Shown one piece after another: positions 3,201 to 21,338 of a DNA stretch of 23,109 nt (position 1 is its first letter; every line of letters begins with the position of its first letter). The notes beneath the pieces are model-generated. The model was given only the letters and a program-made list of their open reading frames with translations, did not search any database and was not told the origin of the DNA. Origin of the DNA: Sediminispirochaeta sp. (GTDB lineage: Bacteria > Spirochaetota > Spirochaetia > DSM-16054 > Sediminispirochaetaceae). The stretch spans positions 1 to 23,109 of the forward strand of contig DSBN01000313.1 of assembly GCA_011046055.1 (NCBI GenBank), given 5' to 3'. The translations under genes were made by a program, and so were the position numbers.

Positions 3201-4169
3201 TTAGTTGTTGGCCTCTTGCTCGGCCTCATCCTGGTGAATCTTCTGCCGCTCCAGTGCTCTGAGCACCTGCACCTCTCCGAGACGTCGCCATTCGGCGTTT
3301 CTTCTGGACTCTTCACGCTCTTCGAGGATACCCCACAGGGCTTCGTTGTCTATGCCCTCATCGCCGGGCAACACGGCCAAGTCGTAGGTGAGCTTCACGT
3401 CTTTGATGTAAGTAATGACATCCCCGCCTTCCTGAGAGGCGTCCTTGTAGATTACAAAACCTTTGAGCTTGCGGAAGGGAGTCGATCGAGGATAGAGCGG
3501 TTGTGAACGCAGCTCTCGGTTGCGTACGTCATCCACATAATTGGGATTCTCCCAGCCGAGGGTTCTCCATCCGCGGAACTGCATGTAGTCGAGGAAGAGA
3601 TTCCGCTCACGGCCGTTCTCGTCTTCCATGATGATGCCCAGGCCGTTGGGAAAGTTGGAGCCATAGACGTTCACCTCGATCCTCTTCAGTGCTCCTACGT
3701 TCTTCACGACACCATTGCCTTCGAACTTGCTGCCTTCCCTATCCTGCTCATCCGCCTGCATATACGCGGGAATCTCAAAGGGGGGTTTGACGATTGCATA
3801 GGAGTTGAAGGGCTCCATGGGGAAATGGACGCGTATGCCCATCACCGTCTCGCCGGCGAATCTCTGCGCTTCTTCTCGGACCGGAGCCTCGAGAGTATAG
3901 GAGAGTCGTTGATTCTCGACGGTCCTCGACGAGGAGGATAGAACCACATCCCAATTTTCAATGGCCAGGGAGGTCTTCATCAACTCTCTCTCTTCTTCGG
4001 TAAAGCCTACGCCGGCTTTCTCAGAAAAATCGACAAGAGTCGCTTCGTTATTTCCGTCCTCAAGATCCGCAGTCAGGGTAGAAAAATCAATGAGAATCGA
4101 TTCTTCCGCGGTAACAGAGAAACTTACCACCAAAAGCAAAATACCAAGTAGAATTCCGAACCGTTTCAT
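3201..4169 (-). CDS. flaA: Periplasmic flagellar filament sheath protein FlaA
   Basis: FlaA coats the FlaB core of spirochaete periplasmic flagella. The 322-residue product has a signal peptide (MKRFGILLGILLLVVSFS, cleavage near VTA-EE, about residue 21), as expected for export through the Sec route. The body shows FlaA-family stretches: an acidic N-terminal region, GIRVHFPMEPFNSYAIVKPPF, a central LKRIEVNVYGSNFPNGLG, then QPLYPRSTPFRKLKGFVIYKD and YIKDVKLTYD near the C-terminus. The acidic/basic tail (EEREESRR to EQEANN) is longer than the core needs. The start is set by AAGGAG 7-8 bases upstream. It has its own strong promoter (4277-4304) and an unusual leader holding an inverted copy of the 60-bp repeat. 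It stands apart from other flagellar genes here, as FlaA genes often do. Confidence 0.93.
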   Translation of the reverse strand: MKRFGILLGILLLVVSFSVTAEESILIDFSTLTADLEDGNNEATLVDFSEKAGVGFTEEERELMKTSLAIENWDVVLSSSSRTVENQRLSYTLEAPVREEAQRFAGETVMGIRVHFPMEPFNSYAIVKPPFEIPAYMQADEQDREGSKFEGNGVVKNVGALKRIEVNVYGSNFPNGLGIIMEDENGRERNLFLDYMQFRGWRTLGWENPNYVDDVRNRELRSQPLYPRSTPFRKLKGFVIYKDASQEGGDVITYIKDVKLTYDLAVLPGDEGIDNEALWGILEEREESRRNAEWRRLGEVQVLRALERQKIHQDEAEQEANN

Positions 4170-4355: not shown

Positions 4356-4844
4356 TCAATTCCGCTCCGTTTCGATCTCACCTTCCATCAGTTCTGGTTG
4401 TACCCCGTTTATACTGTAGATGACCTCGCGAATCTCCGGGAAATTGAAGCGAACCGTCTTGGTCAGACAGGCCAGGGCCTCCTCAAAAGAGAGAGCCGCG
4501 TCGGAAATACCGTTCAAAATCGCCATATTGAAGTCCAGATAGAGGGTCTGATCGCGCAGAAGAATGGTTTGCAGCCGGGTCTCCCGAGAAAACAAGCTCA
4601 CCAGGTCCACATTCATCGGACCGAGCAGTACCTCTCGCACCAGCAACTCGACGTCTTTCTCTTTGGTATCCTTGACCGGAAGGCTGCGTGCCTCGCCGTA
4701 ACAGCGGGAACTCCGGTATTCGGGAAAGAACAGTACCTGTTCGGTCCTTCCACTTCCCCAGACCATATACATCACCGCTGATAACAGCAATAACAACAGT
4801 AGTATCCCACCAAGGGCGGTGGAGCTCTTGTCCTTTAGTCTCAC
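4356..4844 (-). CDS. Membrane-anchored GerMN-domain protein
   Basis: This is a 162-residue protein with one N-terminal membrane segment (about residues 11-29, Leu-rich) followed by a GerMN domain facing the periplasm. GerMN features seen: REVLLGP (70-76), LFSRETRLQTILLRDQTLYLDF (85-105, described by its ends), the helix with EEALACLTKTV, and NFPEIREVIYSINGVQP (134-150). GerMN domains occur in spore germination protein GerM and in exported proteins linked to peptidoglycan amidases; their ligand is not settled. The start is GTG 4844, with GGAG 6 bases upstream and only 3 bases after the amidase stop. It is therefore the last gene of the operon and probably a partner of the amidase. Confidence 0.85.
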   Translation of the reverse strand: MRLKDKSSTALGGILLLLLLLSAVMYMVWGSGRTEQVLFFPEYRSSRCYGEARSLPVKDTKEKDVELLVREVLLGPMNVDLVSLFSRETRLQTILLRDQTLYLDFNMAILNGISDAALSFEEALACLTKTVRFNFPEIREVIYSINGVQPELMEGEIETERN

Positions 4845-4847
4845 GCC

Positions 4848-5891
4848 TTACTCCATAGAAAAGGGCTGTTCAAAATGCTCGACGAAGTCATGAACGCCAT
4901 TATAGATGCCTTCGGCGATCTTCTTCAAGTGATCGGGGTCCCTCATTTTCAGGGCTTCCTCTCTGTGAGTGACAAACCCTATCTCCACCAAGACCGAGGG
5001 CATCCGGGCGTTGCGCACTACAAACCAGGTCTCCTCTTTCAAACCCCTGTTCTCATGCTCAGCCCCTATTCTCCCCTCCAAACCCTGAAGAATCCTTTTG
5101 GCCAACAGGATACTTTCGACGGTGTACTCCTCTTCCAGCATAGTATTGAGAATCGGCGCTACCTCTCGGGCGCTCTCGTCGAGGGTCTCCGGATCGATGA
5201 GTTTGCGCCGATAGTCTGGAGGCAGGTACCAGACCTCGAAACCCTTGGCTTTGCTGTTCAGAGAGGCGTTGGCGTGAATAGAGATGAAAATCATCGCCTC
5301 CTGCTCGCCCAAATCGATATCGTTGGCGATCTCGGTGCGTTCCTCCAGACTCAGGTACTCGTCTCGATCCCTGGTCAGGACTATATTTTTCTCCTTGTAG
5401 CTACTTTTCAGCAGCCCCGCCAAATCCAAAGCGACTTTCAAGACCAAATCCTTCTCCATTATCTCGATCGCCTCTCCTTGCTCATCGCTAAACCTGCCTA
5501 TGGCTCCCGAATCCCGGCCCCCGTGACCGGCGTCGATAATAATAGTTGAGACAAAGAGTTGGTTTGATCTGTCCGGTAGAAGTCCGAGACGGTGCAACAG
5601 GAAGTCCGCATCTTCCCGGGAGAGCGACAAGTCTCCGCCGGAACTTCTTGTGGGAGGATCGATAGTCCTCAGCTCCTGGTAGTTGATCAGTAAAAACCGG
5701 CTGTCCTCACGGAGCACATAGCTCTGGTCGTTTTTATATATCTTCCCGACTCCGCGCATGGGATCCCACTGGAATGAGGCCCCCGTCTTCTTTAGTATCT
5801 GGTCCAGCTCCAGGGTATCGGAGGCGTGAAGCACGGCGGCGAGAAAAAAAACGACGAGTGTGAATGTGAATATTTTCTTGAACCTCACCAT
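4848..5891 (-). CDS. N-acetylmuramoyl-L-alanine amidase (Amidase_3), exported
   Basis: This enzyme cleaves the bond between muramic acid and the stem peptide of peptidoglycan in the periplasm. The 347-residue product has a signal peptide (about 5-23, ending LHA-SD). An N-terminal domain of about 85 residues follows (GASFQWDPMRGVGKIY), resembling substrate- or wall-binding domains of copper-amine-oxidase-N type. The zinc amidase domain spans about 114-340: IDAGHGGRDSGA with His123, the Glu in MEKD (Glu146), IHANAS with His206, and the catalytic Glu of LVEIGF (Glu303). All expected residues are present. Its ATG overlaps the upstream ATP-grasp stop by 7 bases, so translation is likely coupled. 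AmiC-like roles in cell separation fit, but targeting to flagellar or glycan assembly sites is only inference. Confidence 0.92.
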   Translation of the reverse strand: MVRFKKIFTFTLVVFFLAAVLHASDTLELDQILKKTGASFQWDPMRGVGKIYKNDQSYVLREDSRFLLINYQELRTIDPPTRSSGGDLSLSREDADFLLHRLGLLPDRSNQLFVSTIIIDAGHGGRDSGAIGRFSDEQGEAIEIMEKDLVLKVALDLAGLLKSSYKEKNIVLTRDRDEYLSLEERTEIANDIDLGEQEAMIFISIHANASLNSKAKGFEVWYLPPDYRRKLIDPETLDESAREVAPILNTMLEEEYTVESILLAKRILQGLEGRIGAEHENRGLKEETWFVVRNARMPSVLVEIGFVTHREEALKMRDPDHLKKIAEGIYNGVHDFVEHFEQPFSME

Positions 5892-7483
5892 TGACGGAAG
5901 TACTCACCTCCAAAACGACTCATAGTATCGACTATCCAAAGTCCCGCCTGTATACCGGCCCGCAGGAAATGCCGCCAAAAAAGACTCCCCACTAGAATAT
6001 CGGAGTTTTTCGACTCCTCTGAAAGACGTATTCCCGGCTCTTTTTCCAGAACGGCCAGGGCATCGGCCACGCTCAAGCCGTGCCAATCCCTCTCTTCCAG
6101 CTCCAGCCATGACGGCGGGGGAAGGACCGTGATCCGGCGGGGCCCTGTCGGGCTACCGTTCAACTCTCTGAACTCAGGCATTCGCTCCACATACTCTTTC
6201 GCCCAGGCCATGGCCTGGGGATACGCGGCCGGCACCCATTGGCAGGTCTCTCCCCGTAAAAAATCAGCGGTTCTCGTCTCCCCTGGGCGCAATCGAACCA
6301 AGATCTTCCTACACGCCTCTTCGGCGGCGTTGACCGCCGCGTGCCTTTCCGCGGCCGCGGAGATGCAGTTGCCGCACTTCTCTACATTGTTGGTGGGAAA
6401 ACTCACCGGATCCCCCTGTTTTACCCGAACAAAAACATCCCGCACACCGGCTATCCCCGCAGCCTCCCGAAGCCCTTCTACTCGGTCTACAACTCCGGGT
6501 ATAGAGATGAAAGCCCGCTCGGCGGAAACCCAGCTCTTGCGCTGCTCCAAGGAGCCCGGCGGCTTGCCCACCGCCAGCTCCAGAGCTCGTCCGGTCAGGG
6601 GGACTCCGCTGGCATAGGGGTAGGTCCACCCGGACATGTAGCCCCCGGAAAGTCTGGCGGCCACCTCACCGATGACCGCTCGGCGTCCGTCCCACTTCAC
6701 ATCCCCCTTTGCCGCGCCCTTGTCGATCCCCAAGGCCTTCACCGCCGCGGTGAAACTCTCCTCTACCAGCTGCAGTACCCTCCCCGAATACTCGGTGGGC
6801 ATGGTATGTCCCATCTCCACAAAGTAGGGGGGGAAAAAGATGTGTCGGTCCGCTATTCCGGTGATGCGAGGCTCGCCGTCTACAACCAGGGCGTCGATGC
6901 TGAACTCGGGTCCGGGCACGTACTGCTCGACAATTATCTGCCCGCTGCGGCTGTGTTCGCCGGCCAAGCGAAAAGCCTCCAAAAACTCAGCTTCCGAGTC
7001 GATGCGCCGGATTCCTCGAGCTCCCATATTATCCACCGGCTTGACCACCAGGGGAAAGTCGAGACCAGACAGCACCTTGCGCGGCTCGTCTTGGGAGCTC
7101 AAAACGCGAAAGGACGGCGAAGGTATGCCGTTCTCCCGGAAGACCCGGCGCATGCGCTCCTTGTTGCTGGCGGCGAGGGCGGTCTCCGGCTCCAGCCCGG
7201 GAAGGCCCAGGGACCGGGCTACCCGGGCGACGGTGTAGCTGAAATCGGTGCCGGCGGTGAAGACTCCGTCGAGTCCATGATCCGTTTTGATACGACGGGC
7301 CGCCGAGATCATCCCCTCGATATCGGCCAGATCTACATGGACAAAGCTGTCGGCCAAATGGCGGTACTCGGCGTTTTCGTTGCCGTCAGCCACAAAAACC
7401 GTCCACCCCTGCTCTTTGGCCCACTGGATGGCCGGTTTCTGCATAACCCCCGCTCCGAGAATCAATATATTATACTTTTCCAT
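5885..7483 (-). CDS. ATP-grasp ligase of unknown substrate with a C-terminal extension
   Basis: ATP-grasp enzymes join a carboxylate to an amine or thiol through an acyl-phosphate. From ATG 7483 the product has 532 residues. Residues 1-100 form a Rossmann-like pre-ATP-grasp domain (ILILGAGVMQKPAI). The ATP-grasp core covers about 105-310, with FPLVVKPVDNMGARGI (143-158), VEQYVPGPEFSIDAL (185-199) and the metal/ATP-binding strand VIGEVAARLSGG (270-281). The remaining 220 residues include a typical C-terminal ATP-grasp lobe (AERAFISIPG) and then roughly 130 residues I cannot assign. ATG 7483 is chosen over the longer frame because AGGGAC lies 7 bases upstream. It overlaps the fusion gene before it by 14 bases. 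A ligase adding an amino acid or acyl group to a sugar would suit the context; the substrate is unknown. Confidence 0.85.
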   Translation of the reverse strand: MEKYNILILGAGVMQKPAIQWAKEQGWTVFVADGNENAEYRHLADSFVHVDLADIEGMISAARRIKTDHGLDGVFTAGTDFSYTVARVARSLGLPGLEPETALAASNKERMRRVFRENGIPSPSFRVLSSQDEPRKVLSGLDFPLVVKPVDNMGARGIRRIDSEAEFLEAFRLAGEHSRSGQIIVEQYVPGPEFSIDALVVDGEPRITGIADRHIFFPPYFVEMGHTMPTEYSGRVLQLVEESFTAAVKALGIDKGAAKGDVKWDGRRAVIGEVAARLSGGYMSGWTYPYASGVPLTGRALELAVGKPPGSLEQRKSWVSAERAFISIPGVVDRVEGLREAAGIAGVRDVFVRVKQGDPVSFPTNNVEKCGNCISAAAERHAAVNAAEEACRKILVRLRPGETRTADFLRGETCQWVPAAYPQAMAWAKEYVERMPEFRELNGSPTGPRRITVLPPPSWLELEERDWHGLSVADALAVLEKEPGIRLSEESKNSDILVGSLFWRHFLRAGIQAGLWIVDTMSRFGGEYFRQW

Positions 7484-9224
7484 GGTCGTTGTCCCTTTTT
7501 GTAGCGTAAATTTCAAAGCTGTCGCCCAAACGAAACACTCTGCTCAGCAGCAACAGAACACGGTACCACCCTCCCCTACCGGTTGCCGGGAGTAGAGGAA
7601 AACGCTCCGGGTGATGACCGGTGACCACCACCTTTCGCACCCGAAAGCCTCGTCTGTTCAGAATACGCCGGGCCGAACCGGGAGACCACACCGTGTGGTG
7701 GTCGGCGGGACTTTTTTTCAAAAAGCTCCCTATCCGACCCCGGCCGGAGATACCGGAGGAGTTCGGCGTAGAAAAGGCGAATACCCCTCCCGGCTTCAGC
7801 AGCTCTCGGACTTTACACAGCACCCTCGCGGGGTCGGCGAAGTGTTCGATCACGTACCACATACTTATCACGTCGTAGCTGTTCGGGGGAGCTTGGTGGT
7901 CTTCAAAAAAACCCTGGCTCGCCGGAATCTTCAACTCCTTCCGCACGTACCCCACCGCCGATTCGACGGGATCAAGCCCCTCAGCCCGGAATCCCGCCTC
8001 CCGCGCCTCTTGCAGAAAGGGGCCGTAGGCGCAACCCACGTCCAGCAGCTTTTTGCTCCGAGGGCTCACAATTGAGCTGAGTGATGCGAGTCTCTTTTTG
8101 GAGAAACCGCGAATCTGCTCGAAGTCCTCCAGGTAGCTGCGTCCGTACCGTCTCCGGTACTCCTCGAAAAAATACTCCTCTCGATAGCTCTCCCCTCGAT
8201 CGATGAAATCCAACTGATAGACGATACCACACCGGCGACAACGGAAAAAGCTCCGCTCCTCCTGCCGCAACACCGCCTCACCATCGATAGTACCGCAAAT
8301 GGGGCAGGCACCTATCAGAGGCGGCACCAGCCGTGAGAGCAGCGCCGCCAAATCCCTCGGTGGACCGGGGGCGATCCTCTCCATTATACCGTTCACCACC
8401 CTGGGATTCTCCATGTACCGCCTCAGCCTGGAGGAGTGAATTTTTTTCACCCCCAGCCGCGGAAACCCCGCCTTTTTGGATAAGGTGTCGTGATAAGAGG
8501 AGGGATTGAGCAGCAGGACCGCGCATCCGGCGCTCAAGCCCTCGTAGGCGGTGAGACCGAAACTGGTGAACAGCACATCGTATCGGTGGAGTATTTCCGC
8601 TAAGTTGTCGGGCGCCCGAAGGATCTCCACCCCCGCGGGGTAGCCGCGAGGCCCGAACAGCGGACCCTCCACCACCGTGATATTCCCCGCCTCCACCCCC
8701 TGGCGAGAGAGCAGCTCCTCCAGCATCCTTTCGGTAAGGTGCCCCGGATCTTCTCCGCCGAAGCTCACCAGAAAACGCAGAAATCGTTCCGGCGGCTCAC
8801 GCCGACGGGAAGCTTGGGGCAGGAGAGCGGAGTCGAAGACGTTTGCCCCACCCATATCGCCGGGCAGGGGGAAGGTGTCGATCAGATAGGAAAAGTACTG
8901 CCGGTACTCTCCGCCCTCATCCAGACCGACGGGAACCCCCAGGTGTCGGTAGCGGCGAAGCTCCCGCCCGTTGGTCGCTCTCCGGTCATAGATGCAGAAA
9001 TCCCAGCTCCGTCTATCCAGTTCGGTCTCGGAGACAAGCACCGCCTCCTCTGCCGCTCCCGAAGCTTCTCGCAGCTGGGAGATATTCCCAATCCGCGCCG
9101 CGGCGGGGATGAATATATTCACCTGGTGATCCCGTCTCAAGCTCTCAGAGAGTCGCAACGCCCGTCGCAGGTGTCCCGTCCCGTTTCCCCGTCGTACGGA
9201 AGGAAGGAATAGAAAGCTGCTCAC
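7470..9224 (-). CDS. SpsG/PseG-like domain fused to a zinc-ribbon SAM methyltransferase
   Basis: Two enzyme modules lie in one 584-residue chain. Residues 1-300 resemble SpsG/PseG, the GT-B-fold nucleotide-sugar hydrolases/transferases of sialic-acid-like sugar pathways. The cues are the nucleotide-loop motif GNGTGHLRRALRLSESL (13-29), VSFGGEDP (153-160) and the late FTSFGLTAYEGLSAGC (219-234). Residues 307-332 are a zinc ribbon (CPIC and CRRC: Cys307, 310, 329, 332). Residues 390-540 are a class I methyltransferase with motif I LLDVGCAYGPF (393-403), the acidic ELKIP-side loop, and WYVIEHFADP (456-465). Zinc-ribbon sugar C-methyltransferases look like this. The start is GTG 9224, 3 bases after the SpsF stop. 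The fusion implies that both reactions act on the same sugar nucleotide. The exact reaction is not deduced. Confidence 0.85.
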   Translation of the reverse strand: MSSFLFLPSVRRGNGTGHLRRALRLSESLRRDHQVNIFIPAAARIGNISQLREASGAAEEAVLVSETELDRRSWDFCIYDRRATNGRELRRYRHLGVPVGLDEGGEYRQYFSYLIDTFPLPGDMGGANVFDSALLPQASRRREPPERFLRFLVSFGGEDPGHLTERMLEELLSRQGVEAGNITVVEGPLFGPRGYPAGVEILRAPDNLAEILHRYDVLFTSFGLTAYEGLSAGCAVLLLNPSSYHDTLSKKAGFPRLGVKKIHSSRLRRYMENPRVVNGIMERIAPGPPRDLAALLSRLVPPLIGACPICGTIDGEAVLRQEERSFFRCRRCGIVYQLDFIDRGESYREEYFFEEYRRRYGRSYLEDFEQIRGFSKKRLASLSSIVSPRSKKLLDVGCAYGPFLQEAREAGFRAEGLDPVESAVGYVRKELKIPASQGFFEDHQAPPNSYDVISMWYVIEHFADPARVLCKVRELLKPGGVFAFSTPNSSGISGRGRIGSFLKKSPADHHTVWSPGSARRILNRRGFRVRKVVVTGHHPERFPLLPATGRGGWYRVLLLLSRVFRLGDSFEIYATKRDNDHGKV

Positions 9225-9227
9225 AAC

Positions 9228-9929
9228 TCAACCCGTACTCGGAATTTGCTGCTGCATCGCGGAGACTATCCTCCGTGTAGACAGGGGATTCCCGACGTAA
9301 AGTTCCCTAAATATCCGTTTGAGATGTTGATAATCGTCCGCGGTGTCCAAGGTCAGTCGCAGCTCTGGAGCTTGACAAGCCGACGGGGCCGGCGGGCGGT
9401 GAATGCGAAACCGATCGGGATTGTCGTACAGATACGGACAGACGTGTTCCCGGTAGTAGAGGTTTTTCTTGCCCTCTCCGGCGGTCTCTTTTCGCGCCAC
9501 TTCCAAAGCCGTTCGCCCCACGCACTCCACTCCCGCTCCCAAGGGCAGGCCATGGAAAGCACTGTAGTCGGCACCCTGCTCCAGGTGCTCCTCCATGATT
9601 AACCGTGCACACTCTCCGTCCACCAGAGGGTTGTCCCCGGTGGCGCGGATGATGTGCTCCAGACGGAAGTACTCCGCGGCGTGGGCAAAGCGCTCGAGGA
9701 CGTCTTCTTTCGGCCCCACGAAGAGCTGGAATCCCCACTCTTTCGCCAAGGGAGCCAGAGCGTCGCTGCTTGCCAGGTCGGTCAGGAGCGCGTGTACATC
9801 CACCTCCAGACGGCGCAGGGACTCCATAGCGTGGGTTATCACCGGCCTGCCGGCCAGCGGCAGCAGCGCCTTTTCGGGCAGACGCTGGGAGTCCAGGCGA
9901 ACCTGCAAAAAAACACCGACTCTGCTCAT
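9228..9929 (-). CDS. spsF: SpsF-type sugar cytidylyltransferase
   Basis: This GT-A-fold protein of 233 residues belongs to the acylneuraminate-cytidylyltransferase-like family that includes Bacillus SpsF. Its relatives activate a sugar acid or similar by CTP. The nucleotide-binding signature is near the start: VFLQVRLDSQRLPEKALLPLAG (ends given; residues 6-27), where Arg11, Arg16 and Lys20 sit as in the family. A metal-site strand RATGDNPLVD follows (95-104). Near the C-terminus LRLTLDTADDY matches the family's second signature. ATG 9929 overlaps the upstream TGA as ATGA, and this start matches the family N-terminus better than the in-frame ATG at 9947. It sits between a glycosyltransferase-like gene and the SpsG fusion. 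The sugar substrate is unknown. Confidence 0.87.
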   Translation of the reverse strand: MSRVGVFLQVRLDSQRLPEKALLPLAGRPVITHAMESLRRLEVDVHALLTDLASSDALAPLAKEWGFQLFVGPKEDVLERFAHAAEYFRLEHIIRATGDNPLVDGECARLIMEEHLEQGADYSAFHGLPLGAGVECVGRTALEVARKETAGEGKKNLYYREHVCPYLYDNPDRFRIHRPPAPSACQAPELRLTLDTADDYQHLKRIFRELYVGNPLSTRRIVSAMQQQIPSTG

Positions 9930-10891
9930 CCCTCGGGCTCCTCCCACAGCTCGGTTACTTCCCGCGCATCCCGGGAAAAGCGGTACTTATTCAATTGGGC
10001 CCATTGACGGACCTTTTTGAACTCCCTGTAGGCGGTGAAGATCGGGCTGCCCGACCGAAGGTAGTAGGGAAGAAAACGACGCCAGGGGATCTCCCCCCTA
10101 TCGCCGACGAATCGAACGGTGAGGTTTTTGAGAAAAAACTGACGATAGCTCTCGTCAGCGGTGGTATCTTCGCTTGGTTCGGGGGAGAGGTACCGGATCC
10201 GAAAGCCCGTCTCACACTCTATACGCTCCCCCCACATATGGGCTCTGAAACCGAAATCCATCTTTTGCCAGTAGGGGTTGTGGATCATAAAATCGTATCC
10301 GCCGGTGAGAAGGAAACGTTCTTTGTTGTACAGCCCGCAGTAGTCAAAAGGAAAAATCGTCTTCACCCCGTTTTTCCGCGGCGGAAGGGGGATCACCTTC
10401 AGCAGACGTCTCTGAAACGCCGGGATCATCACCGAGGGAACGGTCTCCAGCTTGGTGTTCTGCAGGACCGGCACCGTGCACAGGCGCTCGGAGCTCACCA
10501 GTCGATGCAAGAGCTGCGGGCTCAGGGGCGAGGAGATCTTCATGTCGCTCCAGAGAACCAACACGAAATCACTCTCCGATTCCTTCATGCCGATGTTGAT
10601 CTGTTCGCCGCGGCTGACCTGTTCGTGGAGGAGCAGAAACTTTATCTGGGTGTATTTGAGACTCAAAGCGTCAATATCGTAAGTGCTGGTCTTCGGTTCG
10701 ATGGAAATCACTTCGATGTTGCCCACCTGGACTAATTCTTTGAAAAACTCCTGGCGGTAGGGGCGACTGCCCCGGTGCAGCAGAAGAATGCTCAAAGGGG
10801 GGTTCACTCGTAAAGAGCGGTCAATCTTTCCCCCGCCGACTATCGTGTAGGGGATCCGTAGGGTCTTAGAAGTTGTAGGTATAGTACTCAT
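9926..10891 (-). CDS. GT2-like glycosyltransferase-related protein
   Basis: This 321-residue protein resembles GT-A (family 2-like) glycosyltransferases. Residues 32-65 read as the first Rossmann strand and nucleotide-binding part (PPLSILLLHRGSRPYRQEFF). The region GEQINIGMKESESDFVLVLW (95-114) ends at SDMK, which takes the place of the usual DxD metal motif. Later segments include FPFDYCGLYNKERFLLTGGYD, similar to the acceptor-side part of GT2 enzymes. The start is ATG 10891, with AGGAA 5 bases upstream; the longer frame to 11044 would run deep into the upstream gene. It overlaps the radical SAM gene by 26 bases and SpsF by 4, so it belongs to one operon. The weak DxD leaves open a binding or inactive role. 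Donor and acceptor are unknown. Confidence 0.75.
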   Translation of the reverse strand: MSTIPTTSKTLRIPYTIVGGGKIDRSLRVNPPLSILLLHRGSRPYRQEFFKELVQVGNIEVISIEPKTSTYDIDALSLKYTQIKFLLLHEQVSRGEQINIGMKESESDFVLVLWSDMKISSPLSPQLLHRLVSSERLCTVPVLQNTKLETVPSVMIPAFQRRLLKVIPLPPRKNGVKTIFPFDYCGLYNKERFLLTGGYDFMIHNPYWQKMDFGFRAHMWGERIECETGFRIRYLSPEPSEDTTADESYRQFFLKNLTVRFVGDRGEIPWRRFLPYYLRSGSPIFTAYREFKKVRQWAQLNKYRFSRDAREVTELWEEPEG

Positions 10892-12404
10892 CACACTTCC
10901 TACACGCTTCGGGGTAGTCCTCTTCCAGATGAAGTCGGTATTTCTCTTCTCCCCGACGCCACACAGTCTCGATCCCGTCTTGATACACATTACCGAGCAG
11001 ATGTTCCTGCCGCAGGTCCTCCCGACACATGGGAACCGAGCCATCCATAAGAACCACCAAATCTCTCTTGAGATGCCAACAGGGGAACCTTCGTACCGGG
11101 GAAAGATCGCTAATTTTTCGCTCCGGCAGATACCCGCAAAAGGTATCGTACTTTTGGATGATCACATCGACTCCCTCTTGTTGCTGCCAGTATTTAAAAA
11201 ATTGATCCACCTGCTCTTCATTGTCCCGCATTCTCACCGCTTGGACGAAGACCTGGTGGGGAAAGAGCTTGCGCAGCAGGTCGGTAGTCTCTTTTGCCTC
11301 TTCCCAGTTCGCCCCCCGCAGCTGCCGGTAGGTCTCCCCGTCGTTCGCATCCAGGGAGACAATCCAGGTCAATGCTCGGTTGCCGGCGTGTTTTTCAGCG
11401 ATGGACTCCAGCCCGGCGAGAGTCCATCCGACACCGGAGGTCTCAATTACTAAAGAGAAGCGGGGTATCTCCAACACCCTATCGATCAGCTCTCCTATAC
11501 GACCGTGCAAGGAGGGCTCCCCCCACACCGAGATTCCTACAACCAAATCGTCACAGAACGCCTTCGCCTGCCGAAGCAAGTCCTGCCAAGACTCCGTACT
11601 GATCTCATCTCGGCGATGAAGTATATCCCCGCCAAACTTCGGATAGGGGCAGTAGCTGCAGCTCTGTGGGCAGCCGTCTACCACCTGAGCATAAAGGTAG
11701 GCCGGGAGAGTCCGTAGCAACTCGGGACGCTTTTGCAGGATATCCTGTACGCTGGGGGCATCGTGCCCCCCCGCTTCGATCACCCTTTCGAGCAGCATTT
11801 TATTTCGCCGAGTGTCCGCTGACAGGGCTACCCGGAGAAGCCGTTGATCCGTTGGAGCGATCTCCGTCTCCAAATCAAAGGCGTTAATGTCCTTTTGCAG
11901 AACCTCAAAAATATACTCCCGGCTGAGTGAGACCTGATGGCGGCGGCTCAGCTCGAGGAGCTGCTGTATCGCTTCGGGCTTGATTATCTGGGGACACAGC
12001 CCCTTCGGGTATCCGTCGGCAAAACTGTAATCGGCAAAATATCTGAGATGATTCTCGAACATTTTTTTTGTGAGCTTCAAGTCCACCAAAGGCTCGTCCG
12101 CCCAGACCACGAAGGCGTGATCGTAGCCTCCGCTCTCCTCGAGCATAGTCTCCAAGAGCTCGGGTACGGACCATGTGTCCCGGACCAGAGTTCTTCCCAT
12201 CGTATCGTTCCACACCGCAGCCAAGTCCTCCGACTTCACATCCGTCAGGAGCACCACCTGCTGCACGTCCGGAAAGAGGCCCAGCTTAGCGCGTACCTGT
12301 TCGAAGGCACTTTTCGGCTCTCCGACCTCCTCTGGATCGGGAAGCCTCTCCCGGAGTGCGTACTCATTGAGTCCAAGGGCATGTAAAAAAAGTATATTTC
12401 CCAT
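10866..12404 (-). CDS. Radical SAM/SPASM protein with sugar-nucleotidyltransferase-like N-terminus (spiro-SPASM type)
   Basis: The 512-residue protein joins three parts. Residues 1-230 look like a degenerate GT-A nucleotidyltransferase (HALGLNEYALRERLP, then VWADEPLVDLKL at 100-111 in the place of the metal strand). Residues 235-440 are a radical SAM domain with CPQSCSYC (Cys245, Cys249, Cys252) and a WGEP motif (294-297). The C-terminal part (about 450-512) is a SPASM-like auxiliary FeS region: FPCWHL, PMCREDL, and CRKCDEYY. I recall a TIGRFAM-type family named spiro-SPASM, limited to spirochaetes, with this build. It heads the sugar-gene overlap string, 32 bases after proB. ATG 12404 has no convincing Shine-Dalgarno. 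The reaction is unknown; SPASM enzymes modify peptides, proteins or small molecules, and here a sugar nucleotide is an attractive target. Confidence 0.85.
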   Translation of the reverse strand: MGNILFLHALGLNEYALRERLPDPEEVGEPKSAFEQVRAKLGLFPDVQQVVLLTDVKSEDLAAVWNDTMGRTLVRDTWSVPELLETMLEESGGYDHAFVVWADEPLVDLKLTKKMFENHLRYFADYSFADGYPKGLCPQIIKPEAIQQLLELSRRHQVSLSREYIFEVLQKDINAFDLETEIAPTDQRLLRVALSADTRRNKMLLERVIEAGGHDAPSVQDILQKRPELLRTLPAYLYAQVVDGCPQSCSYCPYPKFGGDILHRRDEISTESWQDLLRQAKAFCDDLVVGISVWGEPSLHGRIGELIDRVLEIPRFSLVIETSGVGWTLAGLESIAEKHAGNRALTWIVSLDANDGETYRQLRGANWEEAKETTDLLRKLFPHQVFVQAVRMRDNEEQVDQFFKYWQQQEGVDVIIQKYDTFCGYLPERKISDLSPVRRFPCWHLKRDLVVLMDGSVPMCREDLRQEHLLGNVYQDGIETVWRRGEEKYRLHLEEDYPEACRKCDEYYTYNF

Positions 12405-12422: not shown

Positions 12423-12437
12423 AAAGGGCTTCCCTTT
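12423..12437. repeat. Small hairpin at the proB stop
   Basis: AAAGGG (12423-12428) and CCCTTT (12432-12437) form a 6-bp stem with a 3-base loop, touching the proB stop codon (12437-12439). There is no T-run, so it is not a full terminator. It lies between proB and the radical SAM gene. It could cut read-through or guide mRNA processing. Confidence 0.45.
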
Positions 12438-13540
12438 TATACCTCTTCCAGAAACACTATATCTTCCGGTCGTGCGATTTCATCCCTCCGTTCGCGTCCA
12501 TACATTTGACTGACCGCGCTTGAATGTTTACCGATCAGACTGGCTATTTCGGTACTATTGTAGGCGGGAACCGCCTTGGCCTCCTGGTTGATCATTACCA
12601 CATCACCCTCCCGAAATATCCCCTCCACGGAGAGAATTCCCGAAGGAAGAAGGCTTTTATGCCGCCGCAGAGCATCCAGCGCGCCTTGGTCGACCAAGAT
12701 TTTTCCCTTGGGAACACTGTTGAGAATCCAACGAACCCTCGCCGAGAGCCTCTCCTGCGATAGGAAGAGGGTCCCCATATCCTCTCCGGCAAGTATACGT
12801 CTCAGAACATCGTCCTCCCGTCCGTGGGCCAATACAGTTCGGCAGCCTGCGTTGGCGGCGATGGAAGCCGCATCTAGCTTTGTTTTCATTCCCCCCGTGG
12901 AGAACTCGCTCCCCGCGCTTCCGGCGTAGGTGTAAATCTGCTCGTTAATATTTTCTACTATCGGAATACGTCGGACCGTCGCGGCGGATTTGGGGTCTCC
13001 GTCGTAGAGCGCCTCTACGTCACTCAGCAAAATCAAAAGTTCCGCGTCTACCTTGCTGGCCACCATTGCGCTGAGCCGGTCGTTGTCCCCGAAGGCGCTG
13101 CCGATCTCGTCGGTGGAGACACTGTCGTTTTCATTAAAAATTGGAACCACCGCCAAGGAGAGCAGCTGTTCGATCGAACTCCTGAGGTTGAGATAGGAGG
13201 TACGGTTGTTGAACACCTCCCGGGTCAACAGGACTTGGGCGATTCGAATACCGTGGGGCTTAAAGGATTCTCTGTACTGGTGCATCAGCAGAGGCTGCCC
13301 TATGGCCGCGCAGGCCTGTCTCATCTGGATATCCTTCACCCGGCTGCTGAGGCCGAGCTCCGCCGCCCCCATTCCAATAGCCCCCGAACTGACCACCAGG
13401 ACCTGTATCCCCCGTTCCGAAAGCGCGGCGATCTGTCGACTGATCTGGTTCACATACTCTATGTCCAGGCGCTCTCCTCCGGAGAGCAGACTGGTGCCGA
13501 TTTTTATTACGATCCGCTTCACTCGGGAAAAATCTCTCAC
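12437..13540 (-). CDS. proB: Glutamate 5-kinase ProB
   Basis: ProB phosphorylates glutamate in the first step of proline synthesis in the cytoplasm. The 367-residue length equals the usual ProB. Residues 5-260 are the amino-acid-kinase domain: IVIKIGTSLLSGG (10-22), VVSSGAIGMG (49-58), the glutamate-site NENDSVSTDEIG with GDNDRLSAMV (136-160), LLSDVEALYDGDP (171-183) and STGGMKTKLDAA (214-225). Residues 275-360 are a PUA domain ending in AYNSTEIASLIGKHS. The start is GTG 13540, which overlaps the proA stop (GTGA). AGGAGG sits 4 bases upstream. The frame extends further upstream into proA but that part is a shadow. The order proA then proB is the reverse of the common proBA order. Confidence 0.95.
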   Translation of the reverse strand: MRDFSRVKRIVIKIGTSLLSGGERLDIEYVNQISRQIAALSERGIQVLVVSSGAIGMGAAELGLSSRVKDIQMRQACAAIGQPLLMHQYRESFKPHGIRIAQVLLTREVFNNRTSYLNLRSSIEQLLSLAVVPIFNENDSVSTDEIGSAFGDNDRLSAMVASKVDAELLILLSDVEALYDGDPKSAATVRRIPIVENINEQIYTYAGSAGSEFSTGGMKTKLDAASIAANAGCRTVLAHGREDDVLRRILAGEDMGTLFLSQERLSARVRWILNSVPKGKILVDQGALDALRRHKSLLPSGILSVEGIFREGDVVMINQEAKAVPAYNSTEIASLIGKHSSAVSQMYGRERRDEIARPEDIVFLEEV

Positions 13541-14844
13541 ACTCCCTCCTGGCCGGAATCGGAAGTAATATCTTTGTGTAGAAAGGGGCGTCCCTCGGGC
13601 CCCGTGTAGTCGGCCACCTTTTGTCCTTGTCCGTAAAGTTTCCATTTGTAAATGCAGAGCCCGTCCAGGCCGACAGGCCCCCGAGCGTGAATTTTGTTGG
13701 TACTTATACCCACCTCAGCGCCCAGACCGTAACGATAGCCGTCGGCGAAACGGGTACTGCTGTTCCAAAACACCCCCGCCGAGTCGACCATGTTCATGAA
13801 GTACTCCGCAGCTTCAGCGTCGGCGCTCACAATCGCGTCGGTATGTCCCGAACCGTAGGTATTGATATGCTCGATCGCCTCATCCAGGCTGTCGACCACC
13901 CGGACCGATAGAATCGCCTCCAGGTACTCGGTACGCCAGTCCTCTTCCGTTGCCTCGTTCATTTCGGCGTAGCTCCTGGCCCGGGGACAGCCCCGCAGTT
14001 CGGTTCCCCGCTCGCGCATCCGTTGTGCCAAGGCGGGGATGAAACGCGCGGCGATGGCGCCGTCCACCAGGAGAGTCTCCAGTGCATTGCAGACCGCCAC
14101 GTACTGGTTTTTTGAGTCATCTACCAACTCAACGGCCATCTCCGCGTCGGCGGAGGAATGGACGTACATATGGGTGACACCGTCGGCGTGTCCGAGTACG
14201 GGAATAGAGGTGTTGGTCATAATATACCGCACAAATTCGTTGGAGCCTCGCGGGATCAAGAGGTCGATGTGCTCGCTGAGGGAGAGCATCTCTTTGACGT
14301 CCTCTCTGGTCTCGGCCAGCTGTATCCACCCTTCGGGTACCCCGGCCTCTCGGCTTGCTTCGGCGATGATATGGGAGAGCAGCCTATTGGTTCTGCCGGC
14401 CTCGCTGCCCCCTTTTAGTATGACGGCGTTTCCGCTTTTCAGAGTCAAACCGGCTATTTGCACCAGAGCGTCCGGTCGCGATTCGAATATCATCCCAATC
14501 AGCCCGATGGGGCAGGTCACCTGACGCAGTTCGAGCCCTTCGTCCAAAAGTCGAGCGCCTATCACTCGACCAACCGGATCTGGGAGCTTCTTCACATCTT
14601 CCAAGCCACGGCAGGTCGCGGCGATCTTCTCATCCTGAAATTTCAGCCTTTTTAATAGAGGGAGAGCCCCGCCGGCTTTTTCGAAGTCGACCATATCTTT
14701 TTGGTTTTCTTCACATATAAGCGTCTCGTTCTTCTTCAGTGCCTCTACAATATAGCTCAACGCACGGTTCTTCTCCTCCGTACTCAAAACGGCACATTTG
14801 ATTTGTGCCTTTTCCGCCTGTATGGCCATCTCTTCGATGCGCAT
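13537..14844 (-). CDS. proA: Gamma-glutamyl phosphate reductase ProA
   Basis: ProA reduces glutamyl-5-phosphate to glutamate semialdehyde with NADPH. The 435-residue protein shows the expected motifs: CPIGLIGMIFESRPDALVQI (111-130), LKSGNAVILKGGSEA (135-149), LIPRGSNEFVRYI (196-208), and the catalytic Cys252 in VAVCNALETLLV. Near the C-terminus NSSTRFADGYRYGLGAEVGI and KIHARGPVGLDGL are also family-typical. ATG 14844 is preceded by GGGAGG 8 bases upstream, so it is preferred to the ATG at 14868. It starts the long minus-strand transcript and has its own promoter (14872-14900). It overlaps proB by 4 bases. Confidence 0.95.
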   Translation of the reverse strand: MRIEEMAIQAEKAQIKCAVLSTEEKNRALSYIVEALKKNETLICEENQKDMVDFEKAGGALPLLKRLKFQDEKIAATCRGLEDVKKLPDPVGRVIGARLLDEGLELRQVTCPIGLIGMIFESRPDALVQIAGLTLKSGNAVILKGGSEAGRTNRLLSHIIAEASREAGVPEGWIQLAETREDVKEMLSLSEHIDLLIPRGSNEFVRYIMTNTSIPVLGHADGVTHMYVHSSADAEMAVELVDDSKNQYVAVCNALETLLVDGAIAARFIPALAQRMRERGTELRGCPRARSYAEMNEATEEDWRTEYLEAILSVRVVDSLDEAIEHINTYGSGHTDAIVSADAEAAEYFMNMVDSAGVFWNSSTRFADGYRYGLGAEVGISTNKIHARGPVGLDGLCIYKWKLYGQGQKVADYTGPEGRPFLHKDITSDSGQEGV

Positions 14845-14871
14845 TTCCTGTACCTCCCTATTGAGCACCCC

Positions 14872-14900
14872 ATTTTAGCCGTTCAACGCCTTAAAGACAA
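14872..14900 (-). promoter_or_regulatory. Putative proA operon promoter
   Basis: On the minus strand TTGTCT (14900-14895) and TAAAAT (14877-14872) are separated by 17 bases. Transcription would begin near 14865, about 20 bases before the ATG, which leaves just room for the GGGAGG ribosome site. It is divergent from the ABC importer promoter and only 8 bases away from it. Confidence 0.6.
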
Positions 14901-14907
14901 GATTCCC

Positions 14908-14940
14908 TTGACAAGCCATTATATATCGTCTTATATAATG
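14908..14940 (+). promoter_or_regulatory. ABC importer promoter overlapped by a perfect palindromic operator
   Basis: TTGACA (14908-14913) is followed by a -10 region, either TATATA at 14932 (18-base spacer) or TATAAT at 14934 (20-base spacer). A perfect inverted repeat, CATTATATA (14917-14925), 6 bases, TATATAATG (14932-14940), fills the spacer and the -10. A bound dimeric repressor would block polymerase. The downstream genes are a metal-complex importer, so a Fur- or DtxR-type regulator is likely. I cannot tell which. Confidence 0.72.
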
Positions 14941-14970
14941 ACTACCATACACCATCTTAGGAGCATGTAC

Positions 14971-16098
14971 ATGCAACGAATAGGATCCATAAACTCACAC
15001 AAAAGTGGCGGCAACAAGCGGAGGTTCACCTTCTCCAAGACACTACTCTTCTTGTGGCTGCTTCTTGTAACCGCCCACGTCGGAGCACAGTCCTCGTCAT
15101 ACCCCATGATCGTGGAGGACGGTCTGGGCCGCGAAGTAAAAATAGCGAGCCGACCCGAAAGGATTGTGCTCGCCGGCAAGGCGACACTCATCACCGCCAA
15201 CGCCTTCTACCTTTTCAATGACTACCGGGACAATGTGGTGGCCATCGGCAAAACCAACCAAGGCTTGGGCAACTTCCTGCCCTATTTGGACGAGAACTTC
15301 GACGATGTGGCGAAACTGGCCCACGAGGTGGGACCGGAGCAGATCATAGCTCACCGCCCGGACCTGGTGATCATAAAAGACTTCATGTACTCTCGATTGG
15401 GAGAACCCTTGGAGAAGCTGGGCGTGCCCGTGTTTACCCTCTCCTTGGAGACCGCCGAGGCGTACCAAGATGAGATCATTCAGCTCGGTCGAGCTTTGAA
15501 CCGAGAAGGGAGGGCGGAAGAGATTCGCCGCATCTATTCACAACGTCTGCAGCAGGTCGACCAGCGGCTTGCCTCCTTGCCGGAGAACAGGCGCCCCTCG
15601 GTACTCCTGCTCTACTACTCCAACCGCGGGGGAGACCGGGCCTTCAACATCGCCCCGGCCGATTGGATGCAGACCTACCAGGTCGAACAAGCCGGGGGGA
15701 GGGCGATCTGGAAAGAGTCCAACCTGGGTAAGGGCTGGAAAACGGTGAACTTTGAGCAGATCGCCGCCTGGGACCCGGATTATATATGTATCACCAGCTT
15801 CAATACTCCCACCTCGGACTTTTTCGAAGAGATCCTCTCGGGGCCCCAGTGGAGCATGCTCCGTGCTACCCGCGAGGGACGAGTTCTTGAGTTTCCCGCC
15901 GACTTCTACAGCTGGGCCCAACCGGATGTACGTTGGATCCTCGGCATAGAGTGGCTGGCCAAAGTCCTGCACCCGGAACTCTTTTCGGATTTCTCCATGG
16001 ATTCGATAGTAGAGAGTTTCTACCAAGAGATGTACAACCTGGACGGCGGCACCTACGATTCGGTGGTCAAACCGCGACTCGAAGGGATTTTAGAATAA
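14971..16098 (+). CDS. Iron-complex/cobalamin-type ABC transporter substrate-binding protein
   Basis: This periplasmic protein would capture a metal complex (siderophore, haem or cobalamin) and give it to the permease encoded next. From ATG 14971 it has 375 residues. AGGAG lies 7 bases upstream; the frame extends to 14701, but those ATGs precede or overlap the promoter. A signal peptide spans about residues 18-40, with a cleavage site near VGAQ-SS. There is no lipobox Cys, so the protein is probably soluble in the periplasm of a two-membrane cell. The PF01497-type fold is visible: VEDGLGREVKIASRPERIVL (48-67), then GPEQIIAHRPDLVII and the second lobe WKTVNFEQIAAWDPDYICI. Ligand residues cannot be read from sequence alone. 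Thirteen bases separate it from the permease gene. Confidence 0.86.
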   Translation: MQRIGSINSHKSGGNKRRFTFSKTLLFLWLLLVTAHVGAQSSSYPMIVEDGLGREVKIASRPERIVLAGKATLITANAFYLFNDYRDNVVAIGKTNQGLGNFLPYLDENFDDVAKLAHEVGPEQIIAHRPDLVIIKDFMYSRLGEPLEKLGVPVFTLSLETAEAYQDEIIQLGRALNREGRAEEIRRIYSQRLQQVDQRLASLPENRRPSVLLLYYSNRGGDRAFNIAPADWMQTYQVEQAGGRAIWKESNLGKGWKTVNFEQIAAWDPDYICITSFNTPTSDFFEEILSGPQWSMLRATREGRVLEFPADFYSWAQPDVRWILGIEWLAKVLHPELFSDFSMDSIVESFYQEMYNLDGGTYDSVVKPRLEGILE

Positions 16099-16111
16099 GA
16101 CTGAGGCGGCG

Positions 16112-17134
16112 ATGCACAAACTCCTGGCCGGCCAACGCCGAAAAATAGTCCTTCTGACACTGCTCTTGATACTCACGTTCATTCTGGCGGTTCTCAGCGG
16201 CCGCTACCCCCGGCCGGGGTTGATCCCGCCGCAATTGCTCTTCGAGGATCCGATGGCTATGAGCCTGGTCCTGCAGCTGCGCCTGCCGCGAGTGATCGCG
16301 GCGGTACTGCTGGGGGCCGGGCTGGCCGGGGCGGGGACGGTTTTCCAGATGATTTTTGCCAATCCCCTGGTGGAGCCCGGTTTTCTCGGGGTCAGCCAAG
16401 GCGCGGCCTTCGGCGCTTCCTTGAGCATCATCGCCTTCTCCTCCTCTCTCTGGATTGTCCAGATATCGGCCGCTCTGTTCGCCCTTCTCGGCCTGGCCTC
16501 GAGTTACGCTCTGGCCCGTCATTTCCGTTTCGGCGGCTGGGTCCTACGGCTGATACTGGCGGGCATCGCGGTGAGCGCGCTCTTTTCGTCGGGAATAGGC
16601 CTGTTGAAATTCATCGCCGATCCCATGAGCCAGCTGCCGGAGATAACCTTCTGGATGCTCGGGGGTCTGTACAGTGTGGAGTGGCGGCACATCTTCTCAA
16701 TTCTCCCGGTGGCCCTGCTGGGCCTGGCGGTGATGTTCGGCTACCGCTGGCGGCTCAACCTCCTGTCAATGGACGACCGCACCGCCTTCTCCCTCGGGCT
16801 GGCCCCCTTTCGCGAACGGCTGCTGCTTCTGGCCACCGCGACGCTGGTCAGCGCGGCGGTCATCTCGGTCAGCGGTATCGTCGGCTGGGTGGGGCTCATC
16901 GTCCCGCACATCGGACGCCGGCTCTTGAGCTCCGACTCCCGAGCCTCCCTCCCGGCTTCGATACTCATCGGAGCAATCTACGTCCTGCTCTGCGACACCT
17001 TCGCCCGGACCTTGATGGACGGAGAGATCCCCCTGGGGGTGCTCACCAGTCTCATCGGGGCGGCTCTGTTTATTTTTCTCCTCACCGGAAGAAAGATCAA
17101 AAGGGGGAAGTTCCTTGCCCGCGAATCTGCTTGA
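16112..17134 (+). CDS. FecCD-family ABC transporter permease
   Basis: The 340-residue inner-membrane protein is nearly all hydrophobic helices (about ten). Family motifs include LRLPRVIAAVLLGAGLAGAG (ends near residues 55-74), NPLVEPGFLGVSQGAAFGA, and FWMLGGLYSV. Near the C-terminus GIVGWVGLIVPHIGRRL is the cytoplasmic coupling region that contacts the ATPase. The start is ATG 16112, with GAGG about 6 bases before it. It is the channel component for the substrate-binding protein upstream and overlaps the ATPase gene by 20 bases. FecCD proteins serve iron-siderophore, haem and vitamin B12 uptake; the substrate is not resolved. Confidence 0.93.
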   Translation: MHKLLAGQRRKIVLLTLLLILTFILAVLSGRYPRPGLIPPQLLFEDPMAMSLVLQLRLPRVIAAVLLGAGLAGAGTVFQMIFANPLVEPGFLGVSQGAAFGASLSIIAFSSSLWIVQISAALFALLGLASSYALARHFRFGGWVLRLILAGIAVSALFSSGIGLLKFIADPMSQLPEITFWMLGGLYSVEWRHIFSILPVALLGLAVMFGYRWRLNLLSMDDRTAFSLGLAPFRERLLLLATATLVSAAVISVSGIVGWVGLIVPHIGRRLLSSDSRASLPASILIGAIYVLLCDTFARTLMDGEIPLGVLTSLIGAALFIFLLTGRKIKRGKFLARESA

Positions 17135-17894: not shown

Positions 17895-17902
17895 GGAGCT
17901 TG

Positions 17903-19663: not shown

Positions 19664-19699
19664 AGATCACCGTCCCGAAGAAGTGTGTTTGTTCCGTTC

Positions 19700-19728
19700 A
19701 GTATAAATCAGCTTCGCTTTTTTTTCCA
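19700..19728 (-). promoter_or_regulatory. Putative ade promoter
   Basis: On the minus strand TGGAAA (19728-19723) and TATACT (19705-19700) are 17 bases apart. Start near 19693, about 30 bases before the ade ATG. The -35 matches consensus at four of six bases and the -10 at five of six. Confidence 0.45.
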
Positions 19729-19749
19729 CAACAAACTGCAACAAGCGAC

Positions 19750-19778
19750 TTGCGCGAATAAGAAAGTCGAGTTACAAT
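19750..19778 (+). promoter_or_regulatory. Putative purine permease promoter
   Basis: TTGCGC (19750-19755), a 17-base spacer, and TACAAT (19773-19778). Transcription would begin near 19785, exactly at the left end of the tandem repeats. The resulting leader of about 160 bases therefore consists mostly of repeat copies B and C. Confidence 0.6.
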
Positions 19779-19785
19779 CAGCTAA

Positions 19786-19847
19786 TATGAAAAGAACCGT
19801 ACCCGGCTGTTTTCATTGTTTCGAGTGCTGCGAAGCAGCATGAGAAA
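19786..19847 (+). repeat. 60-bp double-hairpin repeat, copy B
   Basis: First of two tandem copies in the permease leader; 53 of 62 positions match copy C. The second hairpin is TGCTGC (19826-19831), loop GAA, GCAGCA (19835-19840). The first hairpin has two mismatched pairs. Read as codons from its ATG (19787) it gives an 18-residue Cys-rich frame ending at TGA. That frame lacks a ribosome site. Confidence 0.88.
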
Positions 19848-19851
19848 CTAT

Positions 19852-19914: not shown

Positions 19915-19945
19915 CAAAAATCCATATTTCACAGGAGTAAATGTG

Positions 19946-21229: not shown

Positions 21230-21255
21230 TTCACGTTCTTAAGAAAGCACAATTG

Positions 21256-21289: not shown

Positions 21290-21338
21290 GATCCGTCGTA
21301 GCGGTAAGCGGCAACAAAGATCGGTTTTGTCTCCGTGC

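Follow-up and report, generated by a model that had tools for sequence, protein, structure and literature searches.

Gene content of the locus

The window analyzed here, a 23,109-nucleotide stretch of DNA from Sediminispirochaeta sp. (contig DSBN01000313.1), is contig 1 of a 2.29-Mb draft genome (G000; 400 contigs, 68% complete). It carries a compact set of seven genes that is followed by flaA, the gene for the flagellar sheath protein (Table 1). A preliminary description of this DNA had regarded the seven genes as an envelope or flagellar glycan pathway coupled to a peptidoglycan amidase. The analysis presented below suggests that the operon probably combines three parts, a module making a CMP-activated nonulosonic acid (NulO) for the core flagellin FlaB, a cell wall module, and flaA.

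The genes are tightly packed. Direct reading of the junction between the first two places the spiroSPASM stop codon at 10866 and the GT2 ATG at 10891, an overlap of 26 bases. With its ATG at 9929, SpsF overlaps GT2, which stops at 9926, by 4 bases; the gap between SpsF and the SpsG-methyltransferase fusion (SpsG-MT) is 3 bases, and the ATP-grasp gene (ATG at 7483) overlaps SpsG-MT by 14 bases. The ATP-grasp and amidase genes overlap by 7 bases, 3 bases separate the amidase gene from the GerMN gene, and flaA begins 186 bases beyond GerMN, as judged from open reading frame (ORF) coordinates and translations. The eight genes, their positions, and all junctions agree with the preliminary description when its start codons are used, and the protein that it named only as a radical S-adenosylmethionine (SAM) enzyme can now be assigned to the spiro-SPASM family. 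Scans of the window with Rfam and for tRNA came out empty.

Table 1. The seven-gene set and the adjoining flaA gene, in the direction of transcription
Product	Position	Strand	Length (amino acids)	Characteristics
spiroSPASM (TIGR04321)	10866..12404	-	512	Cytidylyltransferase-like N terminus, radical SAM domain with CxxxCxxC, C-terminal SPASM cysteines
GT2-like protein	9926..10891	-	321	Probable wall/envelope enzyme
SpsF-type cytidylyltransferase	9228..9929	-		CTP_transf_3, 87.6 bits; proposed CMP-NulO synthetase
SpsG/PseG-like UDP-sugar hydrolase fused to zinc-ribbon SAM methyltransferase (SpsG-MT)	7470..9224	-		Methyltransf_23, 96.3 bits
ATP-grasp carboxylate-amine ligase	5885..7483	-		ATP-grasp_4 and LAL_C2; proposed N-acyl ligase of NulO precursor
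Amidase_3 N-acetylmuramoyl-L-alanine amidase	4848..5891	-		Amidase_3, 166.5 bits
GerMN protein (Germane domain)	4356..4844	-		Germane, 36.1 bits
FlaA flagellar sheath protein	3201..4169	-		FlaA, 259 bits

Conservation of the operon

The gene order was compared in 80 named spirochete loci, the best 80 of 542 confirmed when a spiroSPASM alignment was run against one genome for each species. All eight genes, in the order of the window and on one strand, are found in 41 of them. Among the other 39, 21 reach a contig end at most 200 bases past the last matched gene and 18 truly differ; 15 of these 18 exceptions are titled Treponema, and the breaks fall between genes of the set. Counting just the loci in which 2.6 kb or more of sequence is left, ATP-grasp is followed by the amidase in all 41, the amidase by GerMN in all 42, and GerMN by FlaA in all 40. 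Five loci were flagged as out of order by a script; in the three that were printed, the SpsF profile had matched near the start of spiroSPASM. Loci L053 and L148 contain inserts in which no pathway gene was recognized by eye from the ORFs, no family scan of these having been made. Regions from 32 further genomes contain the full set in order in 14 cases and include several natural deletions. The enzyme motifs of SpsF, SpsG, the methyltransferase, ATP-grasp, and GT2 are all retained in the alignments, of which A2 to A5 were each built from the window and 17 to 19 loci picked by hand from the 80. This gene set is a real conserved operon rather than a chance arrangement.

Co-occurrence with flagellin

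Genome-wide searches were made for spiroSPASM, ATP-grasp, NeuB, and GT2, and the comparison of SpsF, SpsG-MT, the amidase, and GerMN was confined to the fetched loci. The survey used 80 genomes, which comprise G000 (included at 68% completeness) and one genome per genus of its class that is at least 90% complete and less than 8% contaminated. This set was cut from 99 hand-picked genomes (G000, one per genus bearing the export gene FHIPEP, and 13 FHIPEP-less genera). The 19 dropped were 15 FHIPEP-bearing genomes that are less than 90% complete, two with 8% contamination (G207 and G366), and two without FHIPEP (G226 and G223). Some results were known before the genomes were dropped, most importantly that G223 encodes spiroSPASM, ATP-grasp, and NeuB. 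Flagellin was called with PF00669 at E ≤ 1e-15, and 66 of the 80 genomes were positive.

The spiroSPASM protein is encoded in 61 of the 66 flagellin-positive genomes and in none of the 14 flagellin-negative ones. ATP-grasp occurs in the identical 61 genomes, such that every ATP-grasp-bearing genome of the 80 also encodes spiroSPASM; in G019, G056, and G184 the two genes lie more than 100 kb apart, yet they still co-occur. At the family level, 32 families have both flagellin and spiroSPASM, 5 have neither, and 1, the Borrelia-like family, has flagellin alone. Neither of its two representatives (G076 and G300) encodes spiroSPASM, ATP-grasp, or NeuB anywhere in the genome. The association with flagellin gives Fisher p values, with kinship ignored, of 7.7e-12 for spiroSPASM and 1.3e-10 for NeuB. 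That spiroSPASM and ATP-grasp track flagellin supports a glycan pathway tied to flagella, as the preliminary description had put forward. The co-occurrence across spirochetes that it suggested as a check is observed genome-wide for spiroSPASM with ATP-grasp and does not extend to GT2, which does not follow them.

In a larger sample of the phylum (179 genomes, 178 of them with FHIPEP), spiroSPASM scored over the cut-off in 155 genomes and only below it in 16, and had no match in 8. Among the 20 FHIPEP-less genomes examined, out of 43, 1 had a spiroSPASM match over the cut-off, 3 had weak ones (<33 bits), and 16 had none. Three genomes, G149, G186, and G304, carry FHIPEP without any flagellin match, and for this reason FHIPEP alone was rejected as a marker of flagella; all three also lack spiroSPASM, ATP-grasp, and NeuB. 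These genomes possibly encode a non-flagellar type III secretion system or decaying flagella. All four of spiroSPASM, ATP-grasp, NeuB, and flagellin are present in G238, a member of the same family as G149.

A NeuB-family synthase encoded outside the operon

The preliminary description had noted that no NeuB-like sugar synthase is present here, which is correct for the window; the genome does have one. In the same assembly, G000:C95:1-699 encodes a contig-end copy of a NeuB (PF03102) protein with an SAF domain, and NeuB is found in all 61 spiroSPASM-bearing genomes of the survey. It is encoded in 64 of the 66 flagellin-positive genomes, being missing only from the Borrelia-like pair. The lack of NeuB had been considered as a mark of new chemistry, an idea that was rejected once the gene was found elsewhere in the genome. 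The unlinked protein can be assigned to the NeuB family only, within which it looks like a divergent subfamily. Comparison of 20 NeuB neighborhoods revealed no conserved sugar cluster, and none of these neighborhoods is conserved beyond near kin.

SpsF, SpsG-MT, and ATP-grasp

The SpsF protein of the window carries the cytidylyltransferase pattern RxxSxRLPxK and matches the solved cytidylyltransferase 6oew at 133 bits. Conserved motifs of SpsG-MT include GxGHlxR, DEGG, and FG.eD. In G056, G157, G019, G091, and G380 (L140:6328-8910 and L141 to L144), SpsF, SpsG, and the methyltransferase form one frame of ∼850 to 910 amino acids, and a similar single frame is seen in L060 and L073. No acetyltransferase family of Pfam or NCBIfam was matched by the eight operon proteins. 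Neither a PseB dehydratase nor a PseC aminotransferase was detected among the window proteins scanned, and no genome-wide search for these was made.

The ATP-grasp protein scores above the cut-offs for both ATP-grasp_4 and LAL_C2, and its nearest solved structures are 4dim and the L-amino acid ligase 3vot. In six proteins from other spirochete classes (P0001, P0002, L169:6906-9068, L172:7753-10026, L174:6738-9017, and L176:6467-8797), ATP-grasp forms a fusion with an FMN-dependent alpha-hydroxy-acid dehydrogenase domain (FMN_dh, PF01070); four of the six match this domain strongly, the other two weakly. Such a fusion would be in keeping with a hexonic acid substrate of the 2-hydroxy or 2-keto type, derived, for example, from 2-keto-3-deoxygluconate.

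The spiroSPASM protein

The first protein of the operon belongs to the NCBIfam family TIGR04321 (spiro-SPASM), for which it scores 561.7 bits (cut-off, 250). An alignment with hhalign shows homology of its N terminus to SpsF (97.3%, E = 1.8e-11); this part also resembles 6oew, and the C-terminal region resembles BtrN (4m7t and 4m7s; 42.9 bits). The strict RxxSxRLPxK pattern, seen in 63 of 75 SpsF rows, is present in none of the 136 spiroSPASM rows. The radical SAM motif CxxxCxxC is intact in the protein of the window and is present in 93 of 126 non-redundant family rows, having changed at least 7 times on a FastTree tree, whereas 136 of 137 rows retain all four SPASM cysteines.

The CxxxCxxC motif is lost or altered, with the SPASM cysteines staying, in loci L004 to L011, L016 to L021, L023 to L033, L056, L060, L140 to L143, L146, L147 (where its spacing is altered), L153, L154, L158, L159, L165, L166, and L168. 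This list includes some genomes that were fetched twice, and L143 also misses one SPASM cysteine. The protein of L005, which lacks CxxxCxxC, comes from G165, presumably a Treponema denticola genome.

Given that the cytidylyltransferase motif is absent from all rows and the radical SAM motif from many lineages, yet the protein is retained, spiroSPASM may, judging by these alignments, serve as a scaffold or a sugar carrier. A cytidylyltransferase-like domain without the catalytic motif may still hold a CMP-sugar. A speculative and rather improbable extension of this idea would make spiroSPASM a double pseudo-enzyme that supplies the missing partner in spirochete flagellin glycosylation, either as the CMP-NulO carrier or adaptor to the FlaB transferase or as the transferase itself. 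The exact term “spiro-SPASM” was not found in the open-access literature searched.

GT2, amidase, and GerMN

The GT2-like protein had no match to a Pfam family at E ≤ 0.01, to a solved structure at E ≤ 0.1, or to PHROGs. It has the conserved motifs W.D and WQ..DFGFR...WGE. In the best 120 of 660 matches, nine of the ten homologs with an organism name are spirochetal, and the remaining one is from a Deltaproteobacteria metagenome-assembled genome (MAG). In a hand-picked set of 59 genomes, also used for ATP-grasp and NeuB searches, 35 of the 37 that belong to the class of the window encode GT2, including all 9 FHIPEP-less ones; among the 22 genomes of other classes, it was unmatched in 20 and weakly matched in 2. 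The amidase contains the Amidase_3 domain and falls below the curated amidase cut-offs (CwlD, 94.2 versus 221.55 bits; AmiB, 77.9 versus 532 bits).

GT2 and the amidase persist at loci without the glycan genes. In the Borrelia-like genomes, the locus reads GT2-amidase-GerMN-FlaA, with no spiroSPASM, SpsF, SpsG, methyltransferase, or ATP-grasp there, and GerMN stays with FlaA in both cases. The locus of G149 consists of GT2, the amidase, and GerMN, with ∼3 kb of contig remaining beyond. In four flagella-less (FHIPEP-less) genomes, G192, G185, G219, and G181, GT2 and the amidase stand alone at the locus, and GerMN was not seen. Conversely, G189 has the whole set minus GT2, and the locus of G096 has the whole set minus the amidase. 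Because natural gene losses split them from the glycan genes, GT2 and the amidase are probably a unit of their own that is separable from those genes and that probably serves wall remodeling; they would have the operon in common with the glycan genes, and not the pathway.

GT2 was rejected as the transferase of the flagellin NulO: it is kept in the Borrelia-like and flagella-less genomes, is lost in G189, and is unmatched or only weakly matched in the 22 searched genomes of other classes.

Proposed pathway and the link to flaA

In the probable reading, the flagellin-glycan module would consist of spiroSPASM, SpsF, SpsG-MT, and ATP-grasp, complemented by the unlinked, divergent NeuB, and would produce a CMP-activated NulO. 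ATP-grasp would first N-acylate an amino-sugar-UDP precursor, taking the place of PseH or SpsD, and the methyltransferase domain would O-methylate the acyl group. The SpsG domain would then remove UDP, NeuB would condense the sugar with phosphoenolpyruvate, and SpsF would make the CMP-NulO, from which the sugar would be attached to the FlaB core flagellins.

The T. denticola FlaB glycan described in 2017 is reportedly a NulO of pseudaminic configuration that carries a 2-methoxy-4,5,6-trihydroxyhexanoyl group at N7, so that its synthesis would call for both an acyl ligase and a methyltransferase. An N-acyl bond made by ATP-grasp and a methoxy group made by the methyltransferase would account for both oddities of this structure.

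Binding of the FlaA sheath to the FlaB core may be aided by the FlaB glycan, and the linkage to flaA would then have an explanation. In the portion of the literature covered here, putative FlaB1 glycans of Leptospira biflexa are placed by cryo-electron microscopy between the core and the sheath, where they have been proposed as mediators of sheath binding; a 1998 paper states in its title that flagellins, and not sheath proteins, are glycosylated in Treponema pallidum and its relatives; and Borrelia burgdorferi FlaA is believed to be near the base of the filament. In the 80-genome survey, the Borrelia-like family is the sole flagellin-bearing family without the module, an absence that would fit a glycan coupling the sheath (FlaA) to the core (FlaB). 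From this pattern, the sugar is predicted to be lacking in Borrelia.

The operon, together with the unlinked NeuB, provides a concrete and testable list of candidate genes for the spirochete flagellin sugar. The spiroSPASM, ATP-grasp, and NeuB proteins reach lineages that are presumed to be Treponema-, Brachyspira-, and Leptospira-like, and sugar synthesis appears to be genetically tied to the FlaA sheath, in line with the FlaB glycans seen between core and sheath.

Contrary evidence and alternative interpretations

Several observations weigh against a flagellin-NulO pathway of this kind. The match of SpsG to PseG is weak (27.9 bits versus the NCBIfam cut-off of 153.55), and the NeuB of G198 is below the curated cut-offs for both PseI (215.7 versus 340.25 bits) and NnaB (240.9 versus 399.65 bits), as are the NeuB proteins of G000 and G056. 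In the Treponema MAG loci L067, L074, L090, L094, and L102, SpsG-MT and ATP-grasp are missing between SpsF and the amidase. The absences behind the Fisher p values cluster in few lineages. Three flagellin-positive genomes, G230, G241, and G344, lack spiroSPASM and ATP-grasp and have NeuB; all three are drafts of 160 to 430 contigs. G230, which belongs to the genus of the window and is 94% complete, also lacks GT2, which may reflect loss or failed assembly of the entire operon. Conversely, NeuB is encoded in 2 of the 14 flagellin-negative genomes, the flagella-less G221 and G265, and the FHIPEP-less G223 has spiroSPASM, ATP-grasp, and NeuB. The latter genome, outside the 80, consists of 690 contigs and is 88% complete with 8% contamination; with it restored, spiroSPASM would be present in 1 of 12 FHIPEP-less genomes. 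In the flagellin pathway of Shewanella oneidensis, discussed below, the covered passages of PMC3765264 name SO_3261 to SO_3264 as required for normal motility, leaving out the ATP-grasp gene SO_3265, and report a slightly smaller flagellin shift in the ATP-grasp mutant.

The tight overlaps, the conserved order, and the presence of GT2 after spiroSPASM in 75 of the 76 loci with room would all be expected if the seven genes formed one envelope pathway, making and installing a wall sugar with the amidase acting on it or with it. Such a pathway is nonetheless quite improbable, given that GT2 and the amidase occur without glycan genes at the locus in the Borrelia-like genomes, G149, and the four flagella-less genomes, that the glycan genes stay where GT2 (G189) or the amidase (at the locus of G096) is missing, and that spiroSPASM and ATP-grasp are absent where there is no flagellin. 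A single seven-gene pathway that includes the amidase was rejected on account of these natural losses. The coupling to the amidase proposed in the preliminary description is thus one of neighborhood, and the amidase should not be read as a member of the sugar pathway.

The NulO could also be destined for a surface polysaccharide or lipopolysaccharide, with the flagellin link reflecting nothing but shared ancestry. NulO biosynthesis gene clusters have been described in Leptospira interrogans, in the part of that literature covered, and the NeuB of G221 and G265 would agree with a surface role. This seems unlikely, however, as G149, G186, and G304 lack spiroSPASM, ATP-grasp, and NeuB, G149 differs in this respect from its family member G238, and the operon ends in flaA. 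A flagellin sugar assembled by the proposed module leaves room for a different substrate of ATP-grasp, which might add an amino acid to the sugar instead of the methoxy-hexanoyl group reported from T. denticola. The LAL_C2 domain, and the fact that the most similar solved structures include L-amino acid ligases, make this alternative a serious one, if still not the one we favor: the SpsG-fused methyltransferase and the fusion of FMN_dh to ATP-grasp point to a hydroxy or keto acid.

Neighboring genes

The proB and proA genes (12437-14868, minus strand) are located 32 bases upstream of spiroSPASM, and their co-transcription with the operon is possible. ProA and ProB were matched with phmmer in just 6 of the 80 loci, in 5 of them upstream and in the same orientation. 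The region 14857-23095 codes for an iron-type ABC transporter (Peripla_BP_2, FecCD, and ATPase), adenine deaminase, a xanthine/uracil permease, and molybdenum hydroxylase subunits and is an ordinary purine-catabolism neighborhood. On the plus strand, the region 798-2949 encodes two adjoining proteins of 414 and 302 amino acids that have no Pfam or NCBIfam match and are perhaps outer membrane barrels. Elsewhere in this genome, a different contig carries two more FlaA-family matches at a short distance from each other (G000:C275:1764-2928).

Comparison with known systems

The kind of pathway proposed here is known, and the operon would represent a new variant of it, with ATP-grasp in place of the usual N-acyltransferase and with a fused methyltransferase. 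The pseudaminic acid steps of Campylobacter and Helicobacter are carried out by the PseBCHGIF pathway, of which PseG, PseI, and PseF have counterparts in SpsG, NeuB, and SpsF. However, SpsG scores far under the PseG cut-off and the NeuB of G198 under that of PseI, and the operon has no acetyltransferase-family match. In Bacillus subtilis, SpsE is the NeuB-type enzyme. The sps legionaminic acid pathway of that organism runs SpsD-SpsG-SpsE-SpsF (PMC7439481), with the SpsG, SpsE, and SpsF steps in the same order as proposed for the operon. As far as the covered passages of that paper go, it differs in using a putative acetyltransferase, SpsD, where ATP-grasp is proposed in the operon, and in having the spore crust as its target.

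In T. denticola, FlaB bears a glycan of 450.2 Da without which filament assembly and motility fail (Kurniyati et al. 2017, as cited in PMC9481697). The literature passages covered here do not name the genes for this glycan, and some of the operon genes may already have been named by the authors of the 2017 study. Among radical SAM enzymes, BtrN is similar to the C-terminal region of spiroSPASM, but many spiroSPASM proteins have lost or changed the motif for the radical SAM cluster.

A genetic precedent is offered by the sfmABCDE genes of S. oneidensis, which, according to the passages of PMC3765264 covered here, place a PseI-like protein, a SAM methyltransferase, and an ATP-grasp_4 protein in a flagellin NulO pathway; the NulO is one of 274 Da and bears a 236-Da moiety with methyl groups. 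The same passages describe no spiroSPASM, SpsG-MT fusion, or linkage to flaA and an amidase. Both systems combine an ATP-grasp protein (SfmE in S. oneidensis) with a methyltransferase.

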